This document shows positions 4,143-32,787 of a stretch of 32,787 nucleotides of DNA, one piece after another (positions within the stretch are counted from its first letter, which is position 1; every line of letters starts with the position of its first letter). Position numbers and translations under genes: made by a program. A model generated the notes under the pieces. It was not told the DNA's origin, did not search any database, and saw only the letters and a list, made by a program, of their open reading frames with translations. Source of the DNA: a bacterium (GTDB lineage: Bacteria; B130-G9); assembly GCA_035527515.1 (NCBI GenBank), contig DATLAJ010000065.1:1-32787 (forward strand), read 5' to 3'.

Positions 4143-5627
4143 TTAGTCTTTCGGTCTCCAGCGCAGCACCGGTCGTCGGGCAGCTCGAACCTCGTCGAGG
4201 CGCGAGAGTTTGGTCTTGTGCGGCGCGGACTTTACAACTTCGGGGTCGGTCTGTGCCTCCTTCGCGATGGCGATCATTGCGTCGATGTATTGATCGATCG
4301 AGGCCTTATCCTCCGACTCGGTTGGCTCGACCATAATGGCGTGGTTGACTATCAGCGGGAAGTAGTTAGTGGGTGGGTGCATCCCGTAGTCCATGAGTCG
4401 CTTTGCGATGTCCATGGTGTTGACGCCGTCCGGGAGCTGGCTGGCGTCGGAGAAGACGCACTCGTGCTTGCACAGACGGTCATAAGGGAGGTGGTAGTGC
4501 TTCTTGAGGCGTTGTCGGATGTAGTTAGCGTTTATGACGGCGTTCTCCGTCGCAGCCTTGATCCCGTCCGGCCCCAGCGAGCGTATCCAGCAGTAGGCCT
4601 TGACCATGACCCCGAAGTTGCCGTAGAAGCTGATTATTCGCCCGATCGAGTCTGCCGAATCGTAGTTGAGGTAGAACCCGTGCGGGCCCTTCTCGATGGT
4701 GGGGAGGGGTAGGAAAGGGGCGAGCTTCTCGACGACCCCGACTGGCCCTCCTCCGGGGCCGCCGCCTCCGTGTGGGGTCGAGAACGTCTTGTGCAGGTTG
4801 AAGTGCATCACATCGACGCCCATCTCGCCGAACCGGGCGATGCCCATGACTGCGTTGAGGTTGGCGCCGTCGCAATATACGAGTCCGCCCTTTGAGTGGA
4901 CTATCTCAGCGATCTCGCAGATGTTCTCCTCAAATATCCCGAGCGTGTTAGGGTTGGTGATCATTATCCCCGCCACGTCATTGGTCATGACGGCGGCGAC
5001 CGCGTGTGGGTCAGCGCAGCCGTGCTCGTTCGATCTGATCTCGATCGACTCGTAGCCACATCTGGAGGTTGACGCGGGGTTCGTGCCGTGTGCCGAGTCG
5101 GGCACGATGATCTTGGAACGAGGGTTGCCGCTCCTAGTGTGGAACGCCCGAATGATCGCCGTCCCAGTAAGCTCCCCGTGCGCGCCAGCAGCGGGCGCAA
5201 GACTCACCTTGGCCATTCCGCCGATCTCGGCGAGAAACTCGGCCAGCTCGAGCATCAGCCTCAGGGCTCCCTGAGACAGCTCATCGCCCTGATACGGGTG
5301 CGATTGGGCGAACCCCGGCAGGCGAGATATGTCCTCGTTCACCTTAGGATTGTATTTCATCGTGCATGAGCCCAGCGGGTAATAACCCGTATCGACACCG
5401 TAGTTCCACGTGGAAAGCCTCGTGAAGTGCCGCACCACATCGACCTCGGACACCTCCGGGAAACCCTTGAGCTCATCCCTCAGTAGGTTGCCCGGGACAA
5501 TCTCGGCAAGACCCCGCACGGGGACATCCGGCTCGGGCAGCGAGAAAGCCCGCTTGCCCTCACGGCTACGCTCGAAGATGAGGCCCTCTTCCTGCACCAA
5601 GCCTTCCATGAATCTCCTTACTGTCAT
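4143..5627 (-). CDS. gcvPB: Glycine dehydrogenase (decarboxylating) subunit 2, GcvPB
   Basis: This is the pyridoxal-phosphate-bearing half of the split P protein, which decarboxylates glycine and passes the aminomethyl group to the lipoyl arm of GcvH. The protein has 494 residues from the start chosen here. K280 in NLHKTFSTPHGGGGPG is the PLP Schiff-base lysine and the Gly-rich loop follows. I prefer the ATG at 5627 because it forms an ATGA overlap with the stop of gcvPA and has a strong GGAGGTGA ribosome binding site seven bases upstream. A frame seven codons longer would begin with TTG inside that site. It is the last gene of the gcvT-gcvH-gcvPA-gcvPB operon. Confidence 0.96.
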   Translation of the reverse strand: MTVRRFMEGLVQEEGLIFERSREGKRAFSLPEPDVPVRGLAEIVPGNLLRDELKGFPEVSEVDVVRHFTRLSTWNYGVDTGYYPLGSCTMKYNPKVNEDISRLPGFAQSHPYQGDELSQGALRLMLELAEFLAEIGGMAKVSLAPAAGAHGELTGTAIIRAFHTRSGNPRSKIIVPDSAHGTNPASTSRCGYESIEIRSNEHGCADPHAVAAVMTNDVAGIMITNPNTLGIFEENICEIAEIVHSKGGLVYCDGANLNAVMGIARFGEMGVDVMHFNLHKTFSTPHGGGGPGGGPVGVVEKLAPFLPLPTIEKGPHGFYLNYDSADSIGRIISFYGNFGVMVKAYCWIRSLGPDGIKAATENAVINANYIRQRLKKHYHLPYDRLCKHECVFSDASQLPDGVNTMDIAKRLMDYGMHPPTNYFPLIVNHAIMVEPTESEDKASIDQYIDAMIAIAKEAQTDPEVVKSAPHKTKLSRLDEVRAARRPVLRWRPKD

Positions 5628-6976
5628 CGCCGCGTCACCTCCTCGCAAAACGTGTCAATCGCATCTTTGGACACGCTTTCGGTGCAACATGCGAGCATCG
5701 TTCGGTCGTCAAACTGCGAGTAGAAACGATTCAGCAAGAGCCCGCCGATGATCCCGTGTTTGCGAAGCGCCTCGTTGACAACATTCACTGGCCGTGCGGT
5801 CTTCACAACGAACTCGTTGAAGACGGGTCCTGAGAACACGAGTTGAGCTCCCATGTCCGAGAGTCGATTCTTGGCGTAATCCGTCTTGAGAAGGTTGAGT
5901 TCGGCCACCTTGCGCATCCCGGCCTTTCCCATCGTCGTCATATACACGGCGGCCGCAAGCGCCATTAGTTGGTGGTTAGTGCAGATGTTGGACGTTGCGC
6001 GGGCGCGCCTGATGTGTTGCTCGCGCGTGGCAAGCGTCATGACGAAACCTGGCCGCCCATCGTGGGTAACCGTGCGGCCAGCGAGCCTACCGGGCATCTG
6101 CCTAACGTATTTCTCGCGGCAAGCGAACAGCCCCAGGTGCGGCCCGCCGAACGACATCGGGATGCCGAGGCCCTGGCCTTGGCCCACCACAATATCGGCG
6201 CCGAGCTCGCCGGGCGACTTCAGAATACCGAGCGAAATGGGGTCTGCAACTGCCACGACCAAAAGTGCCCCGACGCCCCTCGTCGCATCCGCCAGCGCCG
6301 CAAGGTCCTCTATCACCCCGAAGAAGTTGGGCGACTGCACGATGACCGCCGCCACGTCGTCGTTAAGCGAGTTCTCAAAAGAGGCAGTATCGACCACCCT
6401 CCCAGACTCGCTGAAGCCAAACTCCTGCACCTTGAGACCAAGCCGCCCAAGGTAGCCCCTCAGCACGGCTCGATACTCGGGATGAACGCTACTTGCAACA
6501 GCAACAGACCCACGTTTCGCTCGAACGCGGGTGGCCATTATTGCCGCCTCGGCGAGCGCCGTCCCGCAGTCATACATGGAGGAGTTGGCGACCTCCATTC
6601 CGGTCAGCTGGCAGACTAGCGTCTGAAACTCAAACATGGCCTGTAGCGTGCCCTGGCTGAGCTCGGGCTGATACGGTGTGTAAGCCGTATAGAACTCCGA
6701 GCGTGTTAGGACGTGGTCGATGATACTGGGAATGTAGTGGTTGTAGCAGCCCGCCCCGAGAAAATAGGTATATTGCTCTGCGCTAGCGCATCTGGCCGAG
6801 AACTCTCTCATCAACGACATGAGCTCTGGCTCTGAGAGCGACTCGGGCAGCTTGAGTCGCCGACGTAGCCGCACCTCGGCTGGAATGTCGGCAAACAACT
6901 CCCCCACGTCATTGACGCCAATCTCGCGAAGCATCGCCTCGCGATCAGCGTCCGTATTGGGAATGTACCGCCTCAA
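5624..6976 (-). CDS. gcvPA: Glycine dehydrogenase (decarboxylating) subunit 1, GcvPA
   Basis: This is the N-terminal-type half of the split glycine decarboxylase, which forms the active heterodimer or heterotetramer with GcvPB. The 450 residues match the usual subunit-1 length, and family stretches such as RYIPNTDADREAML near the start and FLGAGCYNHYIPSIIDHV are easily recognised. The start is a TTG at 6976 that overlaps the gcvH stop (TTGA), with AGGAGG ten bases upstream, so the rare start codon is well supported. The four-base overlaps on both sides suggest coupled translation that keeps the subunits in balance. Confidence 0.96.
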   Translation of the reverse strand: MRRYIPNTDADREAMLREIGVNDVGELFADIPAEVRLRRRLKLPESLSEPELMSLMREFSARCASAEQYTYFLGAGCYNHYIPSIIDHVLTRSEFYTAYTPYQPELSQGTLQAMFEFQTLVCQLTGMEVANSSMYDCGTALAEAAIMATRVRAKRGSVAVASSVHPEYRAVLRGYLGRLGLKVQEFGFSESGRVVDTASFENSLNDDVAAVIVQSPNFFGVIEDLAALADATRGVGALLVVAVADPISLGILKSPGELGADIVVGQGQGLGIPMSFGGPHLGLFACREKYVRQMPGRLAGRTVTHDGRPGFVMTLATREQHIRRARATSNICTNHQLMALAAAVYMTTMGKAGMRKVAELNLLKTDYAKNRLSDMGAQLVFSGPVFNEFVVKTARPVNVVNEALRKHGIIGGLLLNRFYSQFDDRTMLACCTESVSKDAIDTFCEEVTRR

Positions 6977-7359
6977 TGCTCGCCAGCCTCCTCTTTGACG
7001 AACTTGTCGTAAACTGCGGCGCTCATCAGCTCGTCGATCTCGGCCGGATTCTTGATCTCGATCCTAATCAGCCAGCCCTTCTCGTAAGGGTCTTGATTGA
7101 TGACCTCAGGAGCCTCCAACAAGTCCTCGTTAATAGCGAGCACCTTGCCGGAGACGGGCAAATAACAGTCGCTCACTGACTTCACTGACTCGACCGAGCC
7201 GAATCTCTCGCCCTGGGCAAACTCGCTGCCAACCTCGGGAAACTCGACGAAGACCATGTCGCCAAGCTGCTCCTGGGCTGGATCCGTAATCCCCGTTTTC
7301 CCCGTCTTGGGATCAAGCCACTCATGCGTCGCAACGTATTTCAGATGCTCCGGAATCAT
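6973..7359 (-). CDS. gcvH: Glycine cleavage system H protein
   Basis: This is the lipoyl carrier of the glycine cleavage system, shuttling the aminomethyl group from the P to the T protein. The 128-residue length is standard. K60 in ESVKSVSD is the lysine that becomes lipoylated. The N-terminal THEWL and the ITDPAQEQLGDMVFVELP-like strand region are typical. AAGGAG lies nine bases before the ATG. The gene follows gcvT by 40 bases and overlaps gcvPA by four. No lipoate ligase or lipoyl synthase gene is in the window, so lipoylation must be encoded elsewhere. Confidence 0.96.
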   Translation of the reverse strand: MIPEHLKYVATHEWLDPKTGKTGITDPAQEQLGDMVFVEFPEVGSEFAQGERFGSVESVKSVSDCYLPVSGKVLAINEDLLEAPEVINQDPYEKGWLIRIEIKNPAEIDELMSAAVYDKFVKEEAGEH

Positions 7360-7399
7360 TACATCTAACTCCTTTCTAGCTAATCACTCGGATACAGAC

Positions 7400-8515
7400 T
7401 TAAGTTATCCTCTTTTTCTTCCTGGGCCGTTTGTAGAACGGCGTCGCTACTACTTTCGCCCTAACTGCACGACCCCGTATCATAATATCCAGCTCTGTTT
7501 CGAGCTCCGTCAACTCAACCGGCACGTAACCCAGGCCGATCGGTTTCTTCAGGAAAGGCGCCATTGTCCCACTCGTTACATAGCCAACCTTCGCCCCGTC
7601 GCTGTGAATCTCATACCCGTGCCTCGGGATGCCGGCCACAAGCATCTCGAAACCAACCAGCCGGCGCTTGATACCGTTCTCAATCTGTTTTTGCAGCGCC
7701 TCTCGCCCGATGAAGTCGCCCGCATCCATCTTGACGATCCAGCTGAGATTCGCCTCGAGAGGCGTCGTCGTGTCGTCGATATCGTTACCGTAGAGCATCA
7801 TGCCGGCCTCGAGCCGGAGCGTGTCGCGGGCACCCAGGCCGGTGGGCTTGATGCCGAACTCCTCGCCGGCCTTCATCATCTCGCGAAAAATATGCTCAGC
7901 ACGCTCATTCGGAACGTAAATCTCGAACCCTCGCTCTCCCGTGTAGCCAGTAGCGGCGATAAGGAGGTTCTCAACGCCAGCAACGCTCCCGTGAGTGAAC
8001 CAGTAATAGCGAATCTGACTCAAGTCAACCGGCGTTATCTTCTGTAGTATGCGACTCGCCTTGGGTCCCTGAAGCGCGATCTGCGCCGTCTTCAGGCTTG
8101 CATTCGTGACATCTACGTTCCCGAACGTGTTCTCTTTGACCCATGCGAAGTCCTTGTCGGAATTGCCTGCGTTGACGCAAAGCATGTAATAGTCATCGGC
8201 GATCTTGTGAACTAGAAGATCGTCAACGAATGTGCCGTTGGGGTAGAGCATCCCCGTGTACATGGCCTGACCAATTGACATCTTGCTAACGTCGTTGCAG
8301 ACGAGCTTCTGCAGCGCCCTGAGCGCATCGTCGCCCCTGAACTCAATCTCTCCCATGTGGCTGACGTCGAAAAGGCCAGCCGCGGTCCGAACAGTGTTGT
8401 GCTCATCGATTATGCCGGAGAATTGTACCGGCATCTCCCATCCGGCGAACTCCACCATTCTGCCGCCGAGCTCCTTGACAACAGCATTTAGAGCAGTCTT
8501 TTTTGTTTGTGTCAT
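7400..8515 (-). CDS. gcvT: Glycine cleavage system T protein (aminomethyltransferase)
   Basis: It transfers the methylene group from the GcvH lipoyl arm to tetrahydrofolate and releases ammonia. The 371-residue protein has the normal length. The N-terminal EFAGWEMPVQFSGIIDEH and FDVSHMGE stretches are family signatures, and D98/D99 in NGTFVDDLLV sit at the position of the catalytic aspartate. The ATG at 8515 has GAGGAG seven bases upstream. It is the first gene of the operon; the promoter should lie in 8516-8742, shared with the divergent rdgB. The C-terminus ends in a basic run (KRPRKKKRIT) that is slightly longer than usual. Confidence 0.96.
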   Translation of the reverse strand: MTQTKKTALNAVVKELGGRMVEFAGWEMPVQFSGIIDEHNTVRTAAGLFDVSHMGEIEFRGDDALRALQKLVCNDVSKMSIGQAMYTGMLYPNGTFVDDLLVHKIADDYYMLCVNAGNSDKDFAWVKENTFGNVDVTNASLKTAQIALQGPKASRILQKITPVDLSQIRYYWFTHGSVAGVENLLIAATGYTGERGFEIYVPNERAEHIFREMMKAGEEFGIKPTGLGARDTLRLEAGMMLYGNDIDDTTTPLEANLSWIVKMDAGDFIGREALQKQIENGIKRRLVGFEMLVAGIPRHGYEIHSDGAKVGYVTSGTMAPFLKKPIGLGYVPVELTELETELDIMIRGRAVRAKVVATPFYKRPRKKKRIT

Positions 8516-11998: not shown

Positions 11999-12676
11999 CT
12001 ATTCGTTTGGGTTATTCAACTCTTTCTGTGCGACGTTCTTCAGATCGTCATAGAAGCCTTTGAAGTATGAGCAGCTCCGATAGACGACGTCGAACCTAGC
12101 TTTCTTGAACATGCTTGTCCCGTCCCTGACCTCGCCGTACCCGTCTCCCTTCCGCAGGCGTTTGAGTACCTTATCCACGCGAGCTTTAGGAGGATTCTCG
12201 AAGTTCTTGTTCTCGGCATTAGGATCCGGCATGACGCTCTTATCAATGCACTTCCCATCCGCAAGCAGCCATGCCTCGACCTCGTGAACCGAGACGTGAG
12301 GGTGAAAGAACCCCCGTAGGTTTGCATCAACACCATCCCTCAGCCAAGCGCGAACTGCCTCAACCTTCTCCTCGAGTGCGCTGTCGGACTTGCGCACGAC
12401 CCGATTCATGCCATAGAGATCGATCAGAGTGAAAATCGCAATGACTTTCGGATCCTTGCGGAATCTCACTACACTGCCAAATACGTCGTCGAGTTTGGCC
12501 TTGAGATTGATCGGATGTAGGGCGATTGATCTCAGGTCTTCTGCGTTCCAGCAGCGCTTGACGAAGTGTTCGACGGCGATCATCTCGGTCTTACCCTCGC
12601 AGAGAATAACGATCGTCCTGGCCCGGCGAAGCCGCGATCCACTCAAGGGCGACCCCCGATATGGCCGGATGTCCAC
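11999..12676 (-). CDS. DUF4276 family protein (TOPRIM-like), partner of the adjacent ATPase
   Basis: The 225-residue protein shows the DUF4276 pattern: an early VILCEGKTE (E27, E31), a middle strand with TLIDLYG (D86) and then HEVEAWLLAD (H131, E132, E134, D140). These positions match the acidic metal-binding layout of TOPRIM-like folds, so a nuclease activity is possible. It overlaps the upstream ATPase gene. The frame allows a GTG at 12676 or a TTG at 12646; the latter would form a tight TTGA overlap with the ATPase stop. Pairing with an SMC/ABC-type ATPase recalls RloA/RloB, AbiL and PARIS (AriA-AriB), where the second protein is the effector. The role here is inferred from that layout. 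Confidence 0.75.
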   Translation of the reverse strand: MDIRPYRGSPLSGSRLRRARTIVILCEGKTEMIAVEHFVKRCWNAEDLRSIALHPINLKAKLDDVFGSVVRFRKDPKVIAIFTLIDLYGMNRVVRKSDSALEEKVEAVRAWLRDGVDANLRGFFHPHVSVHEVEAWLLADGKCIDKSVMPDPNAENKNFENPPKARVDKVLKRLRKGDGYGEVRDGTSMFKKARFDVVYRSCSYFKGFYDDLKNVAQKELNNPNE

Positions 12677-13869
12677 AGGTCGCCGAGGCGGAACTTATCG
12701 AGCCAGACGGCGAGCTCTTCCTCGGACAAGCGCTCCATGACGGTGGCGCCATCCTCCTTCTCGACCACAATCACCTCGTTAGGCTTCAGCTTCGATACGA
12801 GCTCCGGCGAGTGAGTCGCGACTATGACCTGGGTCCGAGTGGCTGCCGATTGCAGGAGCTCTGCAACCAGTTCCACAAGCTCAGGATGCAGCCCGATCTC
12901 AGGCTCATCTATGCAGATCAGAGGCGGCGGGTCAGGAGTCATCAGTATCGCAACGAGCGCTAGCATTCTCACTGTGCCATCGGAGAGATACTCCGCAGAA
13001 AAACCGGCCTCATTCTCGAAGGGCTTCTCGAACCAGCGTAGATTAACTTTTCCGTCTCCGCCTTCCGGTGGGAATCTGATGTCGTCGAGCTCGGGGTACG
13101 CGACACGCAAGACATCGAGCATCTCTGCCCAGACGGTCTTATTGGTTTGACTCACCGCATGGAGCACAGCAACTGCGTTGGAGCAATTTGAAAATACACG
13201 GAACCCGGGCCGGATTGTCTCTGGCTGCCGGATTTTAGTTTGCGCCCCGATATCTATGGGAGGATAGACCATCCAGTTCTCCAACGTCTGTAGAATCACG
13301 TATTGACGCCAATAGGCTGCCCGGTCTTTGACCTGAAAAATGGCCAATTCGGACTCACTCTCAAGTTCTTTGATCTGAGGAGGAGGGACGTCCGGGCATC
13401 CGTCCGGACCCATGTAGAGCACCGCTTGGTTCGGTTTATCGCTGGTGCGGGACATGATCATCTCCTCTATAGTCTCGAGCCCTCCAGATTCTGGTTCATC
13501 AGGATTCTCTGGCTCCCAACCTGGAACCCACATCTCCTCAGCCTGCACTATTGGAAAGGTGCCACGGGCCTTAACAGAAACAGCATAAGAGATGCATAAA
13601 ATGCTGGGAGCCACCAACTCCCGGCTCCCGAAGTCCAACCTGAACGCCAGCCCAATCTCGCCGCCCCTATGCTGAATGCTCGCGATGCCGCCTCGCCTTT
13701 CAATGCCTTCGCTGAGCCCGCCGCGTGCAGCCTGCTTGAGCAGGGCAAAGACATCCATGAAGTTGGACTTGCCGCAGCCGTTGGGGCCGATCAGGACGTT
13801 GAGCGGCTCCATATCGAGGCGAACGTCCTTCAGGCTGCGGTAGCCCCTAATCTCAATGTGTGTAAGCAT
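12643..13869 (-). CDS. AAA family ATPase of the RecF/SMC-ABC type (AAA_21-like)
   Basis: This 408-residue protein has a single ABC-type ATPase core. Walker A is GPNGCGKS at residues 28-35, preceded by IRGYRSLKDV as in RecF-like proteins. A signature-like stretch YLSDGTVRMLAL follows, then Walker B LICIDEPE at 317-324 and the H-loop ATHSPE with H353. No long coiled coil or fused nuclease is visible, unlike OLD-family or Rad50 proteins. The start ATG has GAGGG just upstream. The downstream DUF4276 gene overlaps its end, so the two form one unit. By analogy with AriA-AriB and RloA-RloB the ATPase would be the sensor or regulator. It may be a phage-defence module, but this is inference. Confidence 0.8.
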   Translation of the reverse strand: MLTHIEIRGYRSLKDVRLDMEPLNVLIGPNGCGKSNFMDVFALLKQAARGGLSEGIERRGGIASIQHRGGEIGLAFRLDFGSRELVAPSILCISYAVSVKARGTFPIVQAEEMWVPGWEPENPDEPESGGLETIEEMIMSRTSDKPNQAVLYMGPDGCPDVPPPQIKELESESELAIFQVKDRAAYWRQYVILQTLENWMVYPPIDIGAQTKIRQPETIRPGFRVFSNCSNAVAVLHAVSQTNKTVWAEMLDVLRVAYPELDDIRFPPEGGDGKVNLRWFEKPFENEAGFSAEYLSDGTVRMLALVAILMTPDPPPLICIDEPEIGLHPELVELVAELLQSAATRTQVIVATHSPELVSKLKPNEVIVVEKEDGATVMERLSEEELAVWLDKFRLGDLWTSGHIGGRP

Positions 13870-14245: not shown

Positions 14246-15115
14246 ATGTCTTTGATTCCGCCGGGGACCATTATCCAGGATGACGTTCTTACGGTCTTGC
14301 CTGAGCTGCCAACGTGCCATGCGCAGGCCATAATCGCTGACCCACCCTATTACAACGTCCTGGAAGAGGATTGGGATACTCAATGGCATCAGGTCTCTGA
14401 GTATCTGGAATGGAGTGGGACTTGGGCCTCGCAGTGCATGCGCATTCTCAAGGACGATGGTTTGTTCTTCGTTTTCGGGCAGCTAGGAAAGCGAGAGCAC
14501 GGATTCATTCACCTGATGTCACAGCTTTGCGTGAGATTCACGTTCCACGACCTTATTATATGGGATCGGGTCGTTGGGTATAATGAGCGACGAGACAGTC
14601 TCACTCCAGCATACGAGATGATCCTTGTGCTCCGGAAGAGCGAGAAAGTCAAATTCCGCAAAGATAGAGTCCGGATTCCCTACGATGCGAAGAAGATCGA
14701 GACCTACCTTCGTGACAAGAGATATCGGGATAAGAGGGCCCGACTTGAGCATCTCTCCAAGGGACGATATGCAACCAACATCCTGTCCATACCAAGCCTA
14801 AAGGGAGCATCCAAAGAGAAGAGTGGCCACCCTAGTCAGAAACCAATCGAGCTGATCAGCAAGCTGATTATCATTTCCAGCGATCCGGGGGACCTGGTTC
14901 TTGATCCATTTCTCGGATCGGGAACAACGGCGGTAGCTGCCGAGACACTCAGCCGAAAATGGATAGGCATCGAGATCAACGAGAGCTATTGCGCTATTTC
15001 CCGTCAGAGGATCGATGAAGTGCGTGTCAAAGACAGACCAAGCGCAACTGAAGAAGCCCCCAATAAGATGGCCGGGAGCAGCTTTGGCTTAAGCGCCAAG
15101 TCTAACAGAGATTGA
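14246..15115 (+). CDS. Solitary DNA methyltransferase, beta class (probable N6-adenine)
   Basis: The 289-residue protein has the catalytic motif DPPYY at residues 32-36 and the S-adenosylmethionine-binding DPFLGSGTT at 220-228, in that order, which defines the beta class of amino-methyltransferases (CcrM and HinfI types). DPPY favours N6-adenine; N4-cytosine remains possible. A target-recognition segment probably lies between the motifs. No restriction endonuclease is adjacent, so it is an orphan enzyme, which may regulate, protect or be left over from a restriction system. It is the only gene between yifB copies A and B, and the ribosome binding site is weak. Confidence 0.9.
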   Translation: MSLIPPGTIIQDDVLTVLPELPTCHAQAIIADPPYYNVLEEDWDTQWHQVSEYLEWSGTWASQCMRILKDDGLFFVFGQLGKREHGFIHLMSQLCVRFTFHDLIIWDRVVGYNERRDSLTPAYEMILVLRKSEKVKFRKDRVRIPYDAKKIETYLRDKRYRDKRARLEHLSKGRYATNILSIPSLKGASKEKSGHPSQKPIELISKLIIISSDPGDLVLDPFLGSGTTAVAAETLSRKWIGIEINESYCAISRQRIDEVRVKDRPSATEEAPNKMAGSSFGLSAKSNRD

Positions 15116-15294: not shown

Positions 15295-15711
15295 CTAAGT
15301 GGGCGTCGAGAATGGGGCTATCCGCTTCCGTAATCTCTCAAGTGTCTCCAGCCACTGTCTGAAGTGCGGACATCTATTGCGCATCACGTCTAGACCTGTT
15401 CGGGGGGCTATCAAGGACCCATAAAGCGGTTTCTGGTAGCCCGGATATAGGCGCTCTAAACGAGCACTTGGGCAGGTCTGAGGATTGTCATCAATCTCCT
15501 CCGGACTCTCGAATCGATTGGCTATCTGAGCTAGCCTGGAAGTCTGATCAGGTCCATCGGGGAACGCCCCAGCGATTTTCTTTGGATCAGAGAATAGAAG
15601 TGCCTCGAATTCGTGAAGCTGGCAGTGCGGAATGAACCGCTCATGCCCGATGTCAACACGGAGCTGCTCTTCAACATATCGTACACGCTCAAAGCAATAT
15701 CTGCTTCCCAC
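15295..15711 (-). pseudogene. 5'-truncated DUF4276 family gene
   Basis: The 138 residues begin at a GTG with no ribosome binding site and correspond to the C-terminal two-thirds of a DUF4276 protein. The motif region is QLHEFEALLFSD, the equivalent of HEVEAWLLAD in the intact family member at 11999-12676. The N-terminal strand with the CEGxTE glutamates is missing, and an in-frame TGA lies eight codons upstream of the GTG. No ATPase partner adjoins it. The two DUF4276 sequences are otherwise quite different, so it is not a recent duplicate. It looks like the remnant of a second ATPase/DUF4276 cassette. A shortened functional protein cannot be excluded. Confidence 0.6.
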
Positions 15712-16172: not shown

Positions 16173-17120
16173 ATGCCACAGTACGACTTCCGCCTAGAAT
16201 TCCGCCTCCCGGGTCAGGACCATATCAACGAGGATGCCGAGGAGCTTTCTGTACTCAACGATAGCGGCGAAGTGACGATCCGTCTGCGTTCCGGAGCCCG
16301 AGGCAGCCCGATCAAGAAGCACTCGCGTGCGGCCCTCATCGGCGGGCCATACCCGAGCGCCGCAGACGCACAGACTGCGGCGGAGCGTGCCAAGCGGGCG
16401 TTGCTCCTCTGGGCGGTTCGTAACCGCATGGGGATAGACTTAGGTGGCAGACCCCCACGGGCCTTCATCACCAGTGCAGGATTGCAGTGGCAGGAAAGGC
16501 AGATCGGCGCTCCTGTCCGTGCCGCGGTTCACGGGATCGACGTCTACGAGCACATCGACGGGTTGGTCTTCGTTGCGTTGAATTTCGAGGCCAGCGTTGG
16601 CAAGGCGGCACGGGCATTCGTCGAGCAGGTTGCAGGTGCCATTAAAACTCCCCTGGCCATGAGTCCAAAACAGGAGCTGGCCGGCGAGATCCTATCTGCC
16701 TCCTACTTCGAGCCCTCCGATCGTTCGAGATTCATCACTCGCATGACCGCAGTCGAGGCCCTACTGGATCCCCAGCCAAGGCCGCCGGCGGCGCAGGACC
16801 TTGTGGCGAGACTGGTTGAGATCGTAAACAAGAGTGGGCTCGACGACGCTACGCGAGCCGCAATGTCGGGAAGCCTCCAGTGGCTCAAACAGGAGTCTAT
16901 AGGACAGGCGGGCCGGGCGTTAGCAACTCGGCTACTACCCGGCAGGATCTACTTAGAGCTGGCTCCGGGACGCTTCTTTACCTTCTGCTATGGCTTGCGA
17001 AGCTCGATCCTGCACAGCGGGACGGTACCTGCAGAGGTTACTGATTTCCCGAGCGTGTGCGCCGCGGCGCATGAGTTCGTGTGCGATCTTCTAATCGCGT
17101 CGTTCGCGGAGGCCGGCTAA
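16173..17120 (+). CDS. HEPN-domain protein (ApeA-like), probable integron-type cassette gene
   Basis: The first 150 residues of this 315-residue protein show no domain that I recognise. The C-terminal half resembles ApeA-like HEPN domains: a helix with SRFITRMTAVEALLD near residue 190 and, near the end, LRSSILHSG, in which R276 and H281 form the R-x4-H motif of HEPN ribonucleases. Such domains are common effectors in phage-defence and toxin systems, though many are uncharacterised. The ATG at 16173 follows GGAGAG at seven bases. The TAA stop lies inside an attC-like site (17115-17172), as is typical for integron cassettes. Its GC-rich codons differ from those of the next gene. No antitoxin partner is visible. 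Confidence 0.65.
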   Translation: MPQYDFRLEFRLPGQDHINEDAEELSVLNDSGEVTIRLRSGARGSPIKKHSRAALIGGPYPSAADAQTAAERAKRALLLWAVRNRMGIDLGGRPPRAFITSAGLQWQERQIGAPVRAAVHGIDVYEHIDGLVFVALNFEASVGKAARAFVEQVAGAIKTPLAMSPKQELAGEILSASYFEPSDRSRFITRMTAVEALLDPQPRPPAAQDLVARLVEIVNKSGLDDATRAAMSGSLQWLKQESIGQAGRALATRLLPGRIYLELAPGRFFTFCYGLRSSILHSGTVPAEVTDFPSVCAAAHEFVCDLLIASFAEAG

Positions 17121-17172: not shown

Positions 17173-17215
17173 CCGCCCGTAAAGATTGAGATGCGGTTTT
17201 ATCTTCGGAGAAGAT

Positions 17216-18667
17216 ATGGCAATACGAGCATTTGACCTCAACATCGAAGAAGTCCTGGAGAATTGGGAAGTTGAACACGCCTTGCGAGAAGTCATTGCCA
17301 ATGCGCTTGACGAGCAGGTTATCTCCAAAACTGCCGAGATAGAGATTTCCAAAGACAGGCAGGGCGATTGGCATATTCGGGATTTTGGGCGTGGTCTCCG
17401 AATCGAACACTTTACCCTGAACGAGAATCAAGAGAAACTGAATGAGCTTTCAGGAGTCATAGGCAAGTTCGGCGTCGGACTCAAAGATGCACTGGCTACC
17501 TTCCATCGGAGGGATGTCTGTGTTCTTATTCCTTCTCAATTCGGCACATTTCGCCTCAAGCAAGAGCATAAGCACGGTTTTAGTGACATTGTGACTCTTC
17601 ATGTGGAATACGATGACTCGCCTAACAATATGCGCGGCACGGAGTTCATTTTGCATGGTCTGACCGACGCAGATATGACAAAGGCCAAATCACTCTTTCT
17701 GACATTCGCTGGTGAAGAAATCTTGGAAACAACTACCTACGGTCAAATTCTGCGGCGCAAAGGGAATACTGGTCGTGTATACATTTTAGGGGTATTCGCC
17801 AGCGAAGAACCTAATTTTCTATTCTCTTACAACATCACGAGTTTGACCGAGTCCATGAAAAAGAAACTCAACCGAGAAAGGTCGAATGTGGGCAGAACCA
17901 CCTATGCTGATAGGGTAAAAGCCATCCTCAAGACTGCAAAAAGCAAAGCGGTTGAAGATTTGCTTGTAGAGCAAGTTGGAAAGCGTGCAACTGGAGAGCA
18001 AAGCGACGAGATGGCTTGGATTGAAATTAGCCAAATGGCTCTAAACCTGATGCACCAACGGCAGAAGGCGGCGTACTTCACAGAGCAGGAGATTCAGTCA
18101 AGACCTAATATCCTCGACAATGCGAGGTCAGATGGCTACCAAGTCGTCGTTATTACCGAACAGCAAAAATCAAAGTTGCAGGCCCAAATCCAAATGGGTG
18201 GACCACAGGTTCGAACACTAGAAGCCTATGTGCAAGAATACAATGCTAGTTTTGAATACCAGTTTGTTGACCGAGCCAAATTGACGCGAGAAGAGCGCCG
18301 CATCTTCGACATCACGCCCAAGCTACTGGCGCTTGTCGGTCTCAGTCTCAATCGCGCTCCGCAAATACGAATTTCGGAGACAATGAGAGTGACGACCGAC
18401 GGCACCGAAGGCGTTTGGGATTCATCAATTGCCGCCGTAGTCATCAAGCGTAGTAGACTCTCGTCTCTCATTGGCTATGCCGCAACTCTACTGCATGAAG
18501 TTGGACATGCAACCACAGGCGCAGTTGATGCGACACCGGAATTTGAGCGCGTACTAACAGATTATTTGGGGAGAACATCAGTAGCGGCAACGACGTTTTC
18601 AGCTGACGCCACGCCGCTGCGCTTTACGGCGCGACTGATACGCAACTTGTTCTTCCCCCATTCCTAA
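17216..18667 (+). CDS. GHKL-type ATPase with a C-terminal HExxH motif
   Basis: The N-terminal 100 residues form a GHKL (Hsp90/MutL/MORC) ATP-binding site: N box REVIANALDE (E25, N29), G1 box DFGRG at 56-60 and G2 box GKFGVGLK at 83-90. The middle part is unassigned, charged and helical. Near the C-terminus HEVGH at 427-431 looks like a zinc-peptidase active site, with E442/E444 as possible third ligands. The start at ATG 17216 has GGAG five bases upstream; the frame extends ten codons further to a TTG with no such site. The gene is visibly AT-richer than its neighbours, suggesting transfer. Its 3' end overlaps a convergent startless frame by four bases. ATPase with peptidase in one chain suggests a regulated protease. 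Confidence 0.75.
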   Translation: MAIRAFDLNIEEVLENWEVEHALREVIANALDEQVISKTAEIEISKDRQGDWHIRDFGRGLRIEHFTLNENQEKLNELSGVIGKFGVGLKDALATFHRRDVCVLIPSQFGTFRLKQEHKHGFSDIVTLHVEYDDSPNNMRGTEFILHGLTDADMTKAKSLFLTFAGEEILETTTYGQILRRKGNTGRVYILGVFASEEPNFLFSYNITSLTESMKKKLNRERSNVGRTTYADRVKAILKTAKSKAVEDLLVEQVGKRATGEQSDEMAWIEISQMALNLMHQRQKAAYFTEQEIQSRPNILDNARSDGYQVVVITEQQKSKLQAQIQMGGPQVRTLEAYVQEYNASFEYQFVDRAKLTREERRIFDITPKLLALVGLSLNRAPQIRISETMRVTTDGTEGVWDSSIAAVVIKRSRLSSLIGYAATLLHEVGHATTGAVDATPEFERVLTDYLGRTSVAATTFSADATPLRFTARLIRNLFFPHS

Positions 18668-19026
18668 GCGATTTCGATAGCGTCCTGCTTGCCCTTCTCG
18701 GCCAGTTCCGCGCCGGCCGCCTTCTCCGGGGGTTTTATGAGTTGCTGCTTGTTCTTGAGGGGGCCGATGTGGTGTTTCTTCATGGCCGCGATGAGGGCCT
18801 TGCCCGAGAGATTCGAGTGGTCCGCGCCGGGCTCGAGCTCGTCCAGCAGCTTGATGAATTCGGCCTTCGCACGGGCGATGGAGACGCCGTTCGTGTCGGG
18901 CGTCCACCTGGATTCCGGGTTCTTCCTACCTCGAACGAAGGTCTTGGAGCACCTGGTCCGGGATGACCTGCCCAGCGGCTCTGTTCTCTGCGCAGAGCCT
19001 CTCGGACAGTCCTGGTCACTTCCTCC
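18664..19026 (-). pseudogene. Startless, coding-like frame; 5'-truncated gene
   Basis: An open frame of 120 codons runs on the minus strand from just after a TAG (19027-19029) to a TAG at 18664-18666, with no ATG, GTG or TTG near its beginning. The last 85 or so codons have the strong G/C third-position bias of a real gene and read as a hydrophilic helical tail, with TPDTNGVSIARAKAEFIKL, LSGKALIAAMKKHHIG and PPEKAAGAELAEKGKQD. I do not recognise the family. The other two frames in this stretch are arginine-rich shadows. It lies between the GHKL gene and the intact yifB end, so it is likely the 3' remnant of a gene cut by the rearrangements here. Confidence 0.55.
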
Positions 19027-30324: not shown

Positions 30325-30399
30325 GCGGGAATAGCTCAGAGGTAGAGCATCGCCTTGCCAAGGCGAGGGTCGCGGGTTCAAATCCCGTTTCCCGCTCCA
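30325..30399 (+). tRNA. tRNA-Gly (anticodon GCC)
   Basis: The acceptor stem GCGGGAA pairs with TTCCCGC, followed by a T discriminator and an encoded CCA. The D arm (AGCTC...GAGC), the anticodon stem TCGCC/GGCGA with loop TTGCCAA (anticodon GCC) and the T arm with GGTTCAAAT are all present. It reads glycine codons GGC and GGT. The region that follows carries accessory genes, so the tRNA may be an insertion site, but no duplicated tRNA 3' end is visible in this window. Confidence 0.97.
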
Positions 30400-30865: not shown

Positions 30866-31861
30866 CTATTGGTCCAGTCCTTTGAGCAGGCCATTGCATC
30901 GTTTCTCTATTTTCCTAAGTTCGAATTTGCACTTCGCTTGGATCTGCTCCTCCATCTCATCCATATCCTCAACTCGTTCTGCGTCAGCAAGCCACGTCCG
31001 GAATCGCAGCAGCTTCCCATAGCAGACATTACCAACACCTCTAGTTTGAGCGCTCTCATAGGCTTGCTCAAAGTCCTTTTTCTCATGGATGAAGTCCCGA
31101 AGTGCCCTGTTAGATTTCACGATGGCTTTCAGCTTGTCTCTAATATCGACAGCGCGGGGGATCTCCCGGTTCTTGATTTTTTTGACGACCACCTGGTCTA
31201 TTCTCGGGTAGGCCTCTCTCGCTCTCCCTATAGCCCTGCATTTTAGATATTCTTCGTAGTAACTCCACCGTTTGACGTCATTCTCTTCGTGATCGACCAT
31301 GAATGCATACACGGCGATGAGCTGCTCGACCTTCTTGCCCGACAGCCCCAACTCCCTGCCCATTGTGGTCGGGGAAACGCCATGTCGCTTGTGGCGTCGA
31401 TAGAGATAACCAGCTTGCTCATAGGGTGCCCAGTCCTTCTTGCCGATGATATGGTACTCCCCAAGGAGGGCAAATACGTCCTTTTCGGCTATGTTATGCG
31501 GAAGCAGCTTGCATTTGACCTTGCCCCATCGAAGAGGGTCTTGGACAAACAGCATCCTGTATGCAGCGAGACGGGAATTCCCTTCCAAAACGACCAAATC
31601 CCCCTTACGCACAAGGAGAGGATCAGTAAGGCCCCCGTTGGCCTTTATCGACTGTGCCAGCTGTCTCACATGATCCATGGCCTTCAGTGCCTCTTCGATT
31701 TGATCCTGCGTTGCCTGGCGGTCATCTGCCGATATAATGGAGTAGATTCGGGGATTTTCCGGATAGAACTTAAGTTCGACCTGCAGTAAGAATCCGACTG
31801 TGACCTCTATCTCTTTTCCGCGCAGAGTCATGGTGTCTTGATTGAATTCGGCCCCTTTCAT
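30866..31861 (-). CDS. ParB-like N-terminal domain protein
   Basis: The 331-residue protein carries the ParB/sulfiredoxin fold: FYPENPRIYS (NPR at 36-38), GGLTDPLLV at 76-84 and EGNSRLAAYR at 93-102. A helix-turn-helix-like stretch, GVSPTTMGRELGLSGKKVEQ, follows in the middle, and the C-terminal half is charged and helical. This domain occurs in plasmid and chromosome partition proteins and in many accessory proteins, where it may bind CTP or act as a nuclease. There is no ParA nearby, so partition is unlikely. Its ATG overlaps the stop of the SNF2 gene (ATGA at 31858-31861), so the two are co-translated and probably act together. Confidence 0.75.
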   Translation of the reverse strand: MKGAEFNQDTMTLRGKEIEVTVGFLLQVELKFYPENPRIYSIISADDRQATQDQIEEALKAMDHVRQLAQSIKANGGLTDPLLVRKGDLVVLEGNSRLAAYRMLFVQDPLRWGKVKCKLLPHNIAEKDVFALLGEYHIIGKKDWAPYEQAGYLYRRHKRHGVSPTTMGRELGLSGKKVEQLIAVYAFMVDHEENDVKRWSYYEEYLKCRAIGRAREAYPRIDQVVVKKIKNREIPRAVDIRDKLKAIVKSNRALRDFIHEKKDFEQAYESAQTRGVGNVCYGKLLRFRTWLADAERVEDMDEMEEQIQAKCKFELRKIEKRCNGLLKGLDQ

Positions 31862-32787
31862 CTCGTCTCCCTATCCTCTCTTCTAATATTTAGTATATCC
31901 CTCAACATCTCGGCGAATCCGTACTCCATCTGATTGCTATAGTACTCGCGGGAAATATCCCCTTGTGCGAGTTGAGCGGCCAGCCGCTTGGCGTGAAGTA
32001 GAACGTCCACCCATTCGTCAATAGAGTCGCTCATTAGGAGGTTGACGACCTCACAGCGTCGCTGCTGGGAAATCCTATGAATCCGATCCTGTGCTTGGAG
32101 GTAATCATCGAGACTGAAGCTCCGGTCGAAGAAGATGGCGTGATTGGCAACGGTCAAAGTAAGCCCCTCCTTGGCGGCACCCGGTGTAGCCACAAGCACC
32201 CCGCGCTTTGGGTCGGTCATGAATCTGTCGATGGCCTTTGTTCGTCGCTCCATGGGAAGCTTGCCATGTACTTTCTCGGTACCGAAGGGCGCTAGCTCGA
32301 ATGCCAGCCATTCAACATTGTCTGTGAAGGTAGTCCACACGATGCACTTCTCGTCGTTGCGGCGAATGTTCTGAACTAGTTCTTGCAGCGGCTCAAACTT
32401 CCCGGGCTGTGCCGAGTAGCTCTGGTCTATAAGCTTGGGATTGGACGCAACTTGGACCAGGCGGAGCATGCGCTTTAGGATCGACTCAGATTCGTCCTCA
32501 GTGGGCAAACCCTCACGCACGACTACGGCGCGCATTTCATCGCGTATGCTGTGATAGAGTTCCAGTTGGCGCGGCTCCCAATCTGTGAACACAGAGCGAA
32601 TGGTCTTCCTTGGCAACGTGATTATCCCACTGTCCTTTGTCTCCCGCACCGAGAATTCGGATATCATGTCCCTGAGAGACTCAAGTCGGTCTTCAAACTC
32701 ATCCCTAGCCGAATTGCTAGCTGCAAGCCTGCCTGATAGGTCGAGTTCTTTTCGGAACTTCACGAAATCCCTGCCCAGACTCTCCCC
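31858..32787 (-). CDS. SNF2-family helicase, C-terminal part (5' end outside window)
   Basis: The frame is open to the end of the window, where GESLGRDFVKFRKELDL reads like the segment after the DExx half of a SNF2 motor, so most of the N-terminal half lies beyond 32787. An internal GTG at 32761-32763 is probably not the real start. The visible 309 codons hold the helicase C domain: CIVWTTFTDNVEWLA (motif IV), RGVLVATPGAAKEGLTLTVANHAIFFD (motif V) and YLQAQDRIHRISQQ (motif VI). SNF2 proteins translocate on double-stranded DNA and occur in defence systems such as DISARM and in mobile elements. Coupled here to a ParB-like protein; partner genes may lie upstream, outside the window. Confidence 0.85.
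   Translation of the reverse strand, partial: GESLGRDFVKFRKELDLSGRLAASNSARDEFEDRLESLRDMISEFSVRETKDSGIITLPRKTIRSVFTDWEPRQLELYHSIRDEMRAVVVREGLPTEDESESILKRMLRLVQVASNPKLIDQSYSAQPGKFEPLQELVQNIRRNDEKCIVWTTFTDNVEWLAFELAPFGTEKVHGKLPMERRTKAIDRFMTDPKRGVLVATPGAAKEGLTLTVANHAIFFDRSFSLDDYLQAQDRIHRISQQRRCEVVNLLMSDSIDEWVDVLLHAKRLAAQLAQGDISREYYSNQMEYGFAEMLRDILNIRREDRETR

Follow-up and report, generated by a model that had tools for sequence, protein, structure and literature searches.

The locus analysed here raises the question of what is done by a single gene that joins a putative ATPase to a putative peptidase in one polypeptide, and whether such a protein could act in the conflict between cells and mobile elements. 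The gene lies at positions 17216..18667 of the forward strand in a 32,787-nucleotide stretch of bacterial DNA, hereafter referred to as the window. It consists of one open reading frame with an ATG start and encodes a GHKL (Hsp90-like)-zincin fusion protein of 483 residues. A putative ribosome-binding site, GGAG (17207..17210, +), was recognised in the sequence, and GGAGGAG stands at the matching position in L001, whose copy of the gene is 87% identical. An earlier note had described the gene as AT-rich. Its G+C content is indeed lower than that of its surroundings (0.48 versus 0.56 for the whole window), as is its GC3 (0.50 versus 0.55-0.78 in the other window ORFs that were inspected), but the gene is not strictly AT-rich. 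The residue numbers given there, E25 and E428, are correct in the 483-residue protein.

An Hsp90-like ATPase domain at the N-terminus

The N-terminal half of the protein bears the elements of a Bergerat/GHKL ATP-binding site. The N box (EVIANALDE, residues 25-33; 17288..17314, +) has the full pattern R24-E25-x3-N29-x2-D32-E33, in which E25, the predicted catalytic base, and D32 are invariant while N29 is nearly so. It is followed by the G1 box (DFGRG, residues 56-60; 17381..17395, +), with D56, G58 and G60 invariant in the near family, and by the G2 box (GKFGVG, residues 83-88; 17462..17479, +), in which G83, F85, G86 and G88 are invariant across alignment A5. The T-box GT (G141-T142; 17636..17641, +) is invariant in alignments A1 and A2. 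In an alignment spanning 22% identity, the three boxes and the T-box GT are invariant or nearly so. The complete N, G1 and G2 boxes noticed earlier are thus all present and conserved, profile and fold matches agree with them, and together with the catalytic Glu they place the window protein in the Bergerat/GHKL superfamily.

Within this superfamily, hhalign comparison of the window-protein profile gave E 9.8e-13 for Hsp90, represented by an alignment compiled from fetched genomes, and 3e-7 for GyrB. The top nine PDB fold matches of the whole-chain model belong to the Hsp90 family (E 1e-9, at a low TM-score of 0.2-0.36), and the sacsin ATPase domain was the sole NCBIfam family matching the protein, under its cut-off. 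No match to Pfam HSP90 (PF00183) was found in the window protein. The N-terminal domain is nearest to Hsp90 and sacsin-type modules, nearer than to GyrB or MORC. The MORC-type label originally given to it had to be abandoned: MORC2 came as PDB match 27 (E 2.4e-3), behind Hsp90, topoisomerases and MutL, and Pfam and NCBIfam scans of the window protein returned no MORC family match. This exclusion is one of relative similarity, and it covers MORC2 and the MORC families of Pfam and NCBIfam.

The middle region contains the motif NRER (residues 219-222; 17870..17881, +), with R220 and R222 invariant in alignments A1 and A2. In a relaxed colinear hhalign alignment to HtpG, NRER falls on LNVSRE, with R222 on its Arg, and an alpha-beta stretch follows; the middle region alone gave E 0.058 against Hsp90 in hhalign, which is below significance. 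From this alignment, R222 is a candidate catalytic Arg.

A zincin-like metallopeptidase domain at the C-terminus

Residues 350-465 (18263..18610, +) form a zincin-like metallopeptidase domain according to the AlphaFold model, Foldseek matches to minigluzincins and a profile match to Wss1p. AlphaFold prediction of the whole protein with 21 sequences gave a pLDDT of 83 and a pTM of 0.64, and residues 350-465 gave 91.6 and 0.85, respectively. In this model, strands 383-387, 399-402 and 407-411 make a three-stranded sheet, accompanied by helices 418-434 and 441-461. The motif HEVGH (residues 427-431; 18494..18508, +) was placed on helix 418-434 by DSSP of the model. The HExxH peptidase-like end pointed out in the earlier note therefore lies, in the predicted structure, on a zincin-like helix beside a small sheet, and the combination of GHKL ATPase and zincin in one chain is borne out by the ATP-site motifs and this predicted fold. 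Foldseek placed three minigluzincins, projannalysin, selecase and proabylysin, at the top of the PDB matches of the peptidase domain (probability 0.94-1.00, mostly 0.99-1.00; TM 0.5-0.6; best E 7e-3), and the best PDB match in a profile search was Wss1p (E 9.8e-5). By composition, 0.025 HExxH motifs are expected by chance in the window chain, and in nearly all full-length relatives the motif falls in one and the same column of the alignment; its presence is thus not fortuitous.

In alignment A6 the peptidase domain has just four invariant positions, H427, E428, H431 and D438. Judged by this conservation, D438 (18527..18529, +) is most likely the third metal ligand among the nearby acidic residues, a role that may be taken by His where the Asp is replaced. 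By inspection, D438 is His in one Chloroflexota clade, in the form NHG (HEIAHASSGGNHG), and L052 and L053 are readable likewise, with IHG 11 residues past the first His. The alternative ligand, E444 (18545..18547, +), is invariant in alignment A2 and kept in the F-E subgroup only. It was rejected as a universal third ligand, being Met in one Chloroflexota clade and not conserved in one phage group; L113-L117, L121 and L056-L061 do not keep it.

The protein ends with a 25-residue tail (residues 459-483; 18590..18664, +) that is common to no relative and has a pLDDT below 50 over most of its length. DNA homology with L001 starts about 42 bases upstream of the gene and runs through residue 458, stopping at 18588, with none beyond. 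The tail is probably a recombination scar.

Distribution and evolution of the family

Nearly full-length copies, 87, 77 and 67% identical, were found in metagenome-assembled genomes (MAGs) labelled Proteobacteria, Verrucomicrobiota and Chloroflexota, and plasmid copies in bacteria and haloarchaea show 39-46% identity. Full-length relatives, the most distant with about 18% identity, occur in bacteria, archaea, plasmids, prophages and phages, and almost always keep HExxH. A profile search added 17 more distant viral contigs. Sixteen distant viral relatives span the whole C-terminal region, and every one of them carries HExxH; ten of these do not have the D-x-T-x-x-F-E motif, which means that they were found through the ATPase pattern and not through the peptidase pattern. 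Viral scans using single distant proteins, or the peptidase domain alone, gave no matches. The prediction that homologues keep HEVGH holds for almost all full-length relatives but fails for a Halorussus plasmid member, which has lost HExxH, and for shorter phage relatives in the family PHROG_6077 (e.g. L018 and L065), in which the whole peptidase domain is absent. These exceptions indicate that the ATPase part can work without the peptidase. One Chloroflexota copy is broken.

Some family members depart from the common layout. Two Bacillota plasmid proteins of approximately 1000-1100 residues (L014 4260-7241 and L015 2952-6263) comprise two or three GHKL units in tandem and a single HExxH end, and in L042/L045 (G576) the family gene is interrupted by an insert of about 500 bases near profile position 323. 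The model also matched in fold BFVD A0A3Q8Q6V3, a "putative structural protein" of Sulfolobales Beppu filamentous phage (E 4e-14).

The family is rare, patchy and sporadic. It was found in one of 98 genomes of a broad sample, where weaker matches were partial and came from long gyrase/MutL-type ORFs, in one of 388 genomes of a Verrucomicrobiota sample, in 15 of 400 genomes from the phylum of L003, and in five of 399 (two of them distant) sampled around the Proteobacteria-labelled genome.

Both halves of the protein co-evolve, as the distances between 39 members measured on the ATPase-plus-middle part correlate with those measured on the peptidase part (r=0.86; 0 of 2000 permutations). This correlation indicates that the fusion is old and has been inherited as a unit. 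The closest pair is under strong purifying selection, with a dN/dS between the window gene and L001 of 0.084 over the whole gene and 0.147 for the peptidase part. Moreover, the gene has been transferred, as had been proposed from its composition and neighbours: the 87% and 77% copies come from MAGs that carry the labels of other phyla and have no neighbours in common with the window. An identity of 87% between phyla points to recent transfer, part of which could be mimicked by MAG binning errors. Mobility as an integron cassette was considered and rejected; a hairpin precedes the gene, but convincing attC sites were not found by inspection.

Genomic context

Upstream of the gene, the window carries a 315-residue gene without family, an N6/N4 methyltransferase gene and AAA_21/DUF4276 genes. 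The AAA_21 ATPase and DUF4276 pair (11999-13869, -) is matched by HEC-01 models. A second, truncated DUF4276 copy (15295-15711, -) lies 1.4 kb further on, and the DNA methylase (14246-15115, +) stands between the HEC-01-like pair and this copy. The 315-residue protein (16173-17120, +) has R-x4-H at residue 276 and could be HEPN-like; Pfam, PADLOC and NCBIfam gave no match to it. In L003 a sub-threshold HEPN gene lies upstream of the family gene. A HEPN gene as fixed partner was nevertheless dismissed, for want of a family match and of conservation between loci. On the other side, a ComM-like gene adjoins the fusion gene on the opposite strand, with a degenerate frame between them (18668-19000, -) that looks like a gene remnant. 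Farther away, a gene run at 4143-8515 (-) was read by eye as an ordinary glycine-cleavage cluster (GcvP subunits, GcvH and GcvT). The end of the window (30866-32763, -) encodes the C-terminal part of a SNF2-type helicase (ZorD/DpdE-like) and a weakly PDC-M38A-like protein; with the adjacent tRNA-Gly (30325-30399), this could be a second defence locus.

Elsewhere, the family gene of the Salinibacter plasmid pSR56 is inserted between hsdS and hsdR, with gaps of about 50 bases, that of Halorussus lies beside hsdM/hsdS and a helicase gene, and in Natrinema pAgo, SIR2 and PLD genes are near it. In L019, amidase and tail genes adjoin it at the edge of a viral contig or prophage. Many bacterial copies, those of L001, L002 and several Chloroflexota among them, sit by themselves amid ordinary genes. 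A HerA-NurA pair read by eye in L111 was not used, as Pfam and NCBIfam gave no match. The loci surveyed are few, too few for a statistical test of defence enrichment. Gene context suggests an anti-phage or defence role, and the abundance of the family in lytic phages makes a role on the phage side possible as well.

Proposed function and alternatives

Taken together, these features are best explained by a cytoplasmic metalloprotease that is gated by ATP and acts in conflicts involving mobile elements, a reading in which we place about even confidence. The Hsp90-like N-terminal GHKL domain would bind ATP and, as in Hsp90, MutL and GyrB, would dimerise, giving a clamp that closes on its client, a protein or a nucleoprotein. 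Through the middle region, ATP turnover would be coupled to the Wss1/minigluzincin-like zincin. There, H427, H431 and D438 (a His in one clade) would hold the zinc, and E428 would serve as general base in cutting the client. The gene moves singly among bacteria, archaea, plasmids and prophages; activity against phages or other mobile elements is the most likely reason, and the relatives in lytic phages would probably serve takeover or counter-defence. A more specific version can be put forward only tentatively, namely a new type of immune system made up of one gene, in which the Hsp90-like clamp would sense an invading protein or nucleoprotein and feed or switch on the built-in Wss1-like metalloprotease, phages using the same family for the opposite purpose.

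The main rival, which we consider rather unlikely, is that the protein serves in repair: a Wss1/SPRTN-like protease for DNA-protein crosslinks or nucleoprotein, whose GHKL part would be a DNA clamp, as in MutL and topoisomerases, that delivers the zincin to proteins trapped on DNA. In phages, the protein would then serve to clear host proteins off the phage genome, and phage copies do sit among helicase, ligase, dUTPase and SSB genes. The closest PDB sequence relative of the peptidase domain, Wss1p, is a DNA-protein-crosslink protease (PMC5557861), and an SbcCD-like pair lies near the Croceicoccus copy. A Y-family DNA polymerase gene accompanies the homologue, adjacent or nearby, in four members of a single Chloroflexota clade (L116 2974-4035, for which the family was checked, L117 7188-8264, L115 10619-11851 and L120 4842-6128). 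This link is, however, limited to that clade, and the genes are convergent where adjacent. Moreover, the N-terminal domain is nearer to Hsp90 and sacsin than to GyrB, and occurrence in one of the 98 broadly sampled genomes is unlike that of housekeeping repair.

It is less probable still that the family belongs first of all to phages, serving host takeover or counter-defence, its cellular and plasmid copies being captured passengers or means of superinfection exclusion. Relatives occur in about 90-110 phage records, including Moorella, Exiguobacterium and Vequintavirinae phages, and all 21 members of alignment A5 match the phage family PHROG_6077. On the other hand, the bacterial, archaeal and plasmid sequences form one clade with support of 100/100, apart from nearly all phage sequences; the closest pair of this clade is under the strong purifying selection described above, and one of its members lies inside an hsd operon. 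Finally, a chaperone-like ATPase with the zincin as a non-proteolytic binding module, HExxH holding a structural metal, is very improbable: Hsp90 itself is a chaperone, and the motif or the domain is missing in the Halorussus member and the shorter phage relatives, but the presumed general base E428, needless for a structural metal, is invariant in alignment A6 with both His and the Asp.

If active, the protein would be a protease that has an Hsp90-type cycle, and not an AAA+ unfoldase, as its gate. It would also provide a testable function for PHROG_6077, a family of unknown function found in many sequenced phages, whose proteins are mostly annotated as hypothetical and sometimes as histidine kinase-like ATPase or RIIA.

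Comparison with known systems

No PADLOC family matched the window protein, which corresponds to no known defence family, Tiamat included. A curated description of the fusion is absent from Pfam, NCBIfam and PADLOC, in keeping with the undescribed effector suggested beforehand. Nor did the literature searched contain a GHKL-metallopeptidase fusion, which is weak evidence, since subscription papers were mostly outside its coverage.

Among phage proteins, T4 RIIA likewise combines a GHKL domain with a variable part C-terminal to it; however, the alignment covers about 75 columns of the GHKL core and no more, and orthology with RIIA was rejected for this reason. The PHROG_6077 profile, 366 positions long, matches residues 14-326 of the window protein (E 9e-23) and its match ends ahead of the peptidase domain. 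Some distant relatives show weak, GHKL-only similarity to Tiamat (TmtA), whereas the window protein has no match to it, and the TmtA profiles that matched those relatives span 1063-1538 positions.

With Hsp90/HtpG, the window protein shares the Hsp90-type N-terminal GHKL domain and the colinear NRER/LNVSRE motif, but it has a zincin where Hsp90 has its C-terminal dimerisation domain. With Wss1/SprT-like proteins and the minigluzincins proabylysin, projannalysin and selecase, it shares a minimal zincin of three strands and two helices, with HExxH on the active-site helix; here, unlike in Wss1 and the minigluzincins, this zincin is fused behind a GHKL ATPase. Wss1, which has been placed in the minigluzincin family, binds zinc via His-115, His-119 and His-125, the third ligand being 10 residues past the first His (PMC5557861), whereas the Asp proposed here is 11 residues past it.

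The nearest parallels in design come from defence or restriction-modification contexts, in proteins whose GHKL domain precedes a C-terminal effector. VcSduA is a Shedu protein with a GHKL N-terminal domain, in which mutation of either active site abolishes protection (PMC12137116), and paraMORCs include fusions of GHKL with REase and TIR (PMC2292703) and with HEPN (PMC3710099). The effectors of VcSduA and of the paraMORC3, paraMORC4 and Ymh-HEPN fusions are a PD-(D/E)xK nuclease, TIR or HEPN and not a metallopeptidase, a distinction drawn from their published descriptions; the DUF4263 nuclease domain of Shedu type I-D (VcSduA-like) gave no Pfam match in the window protein. Fusions of GHKL with nuclease, TIR or HEPN effectors are thus already known, and the new part here is a protease as effector. 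The fusion is common to many uncharacterised phage, plasmid and bacterial proteins, and may represent an undescribed ATP-gated protease in phage-host conflict.
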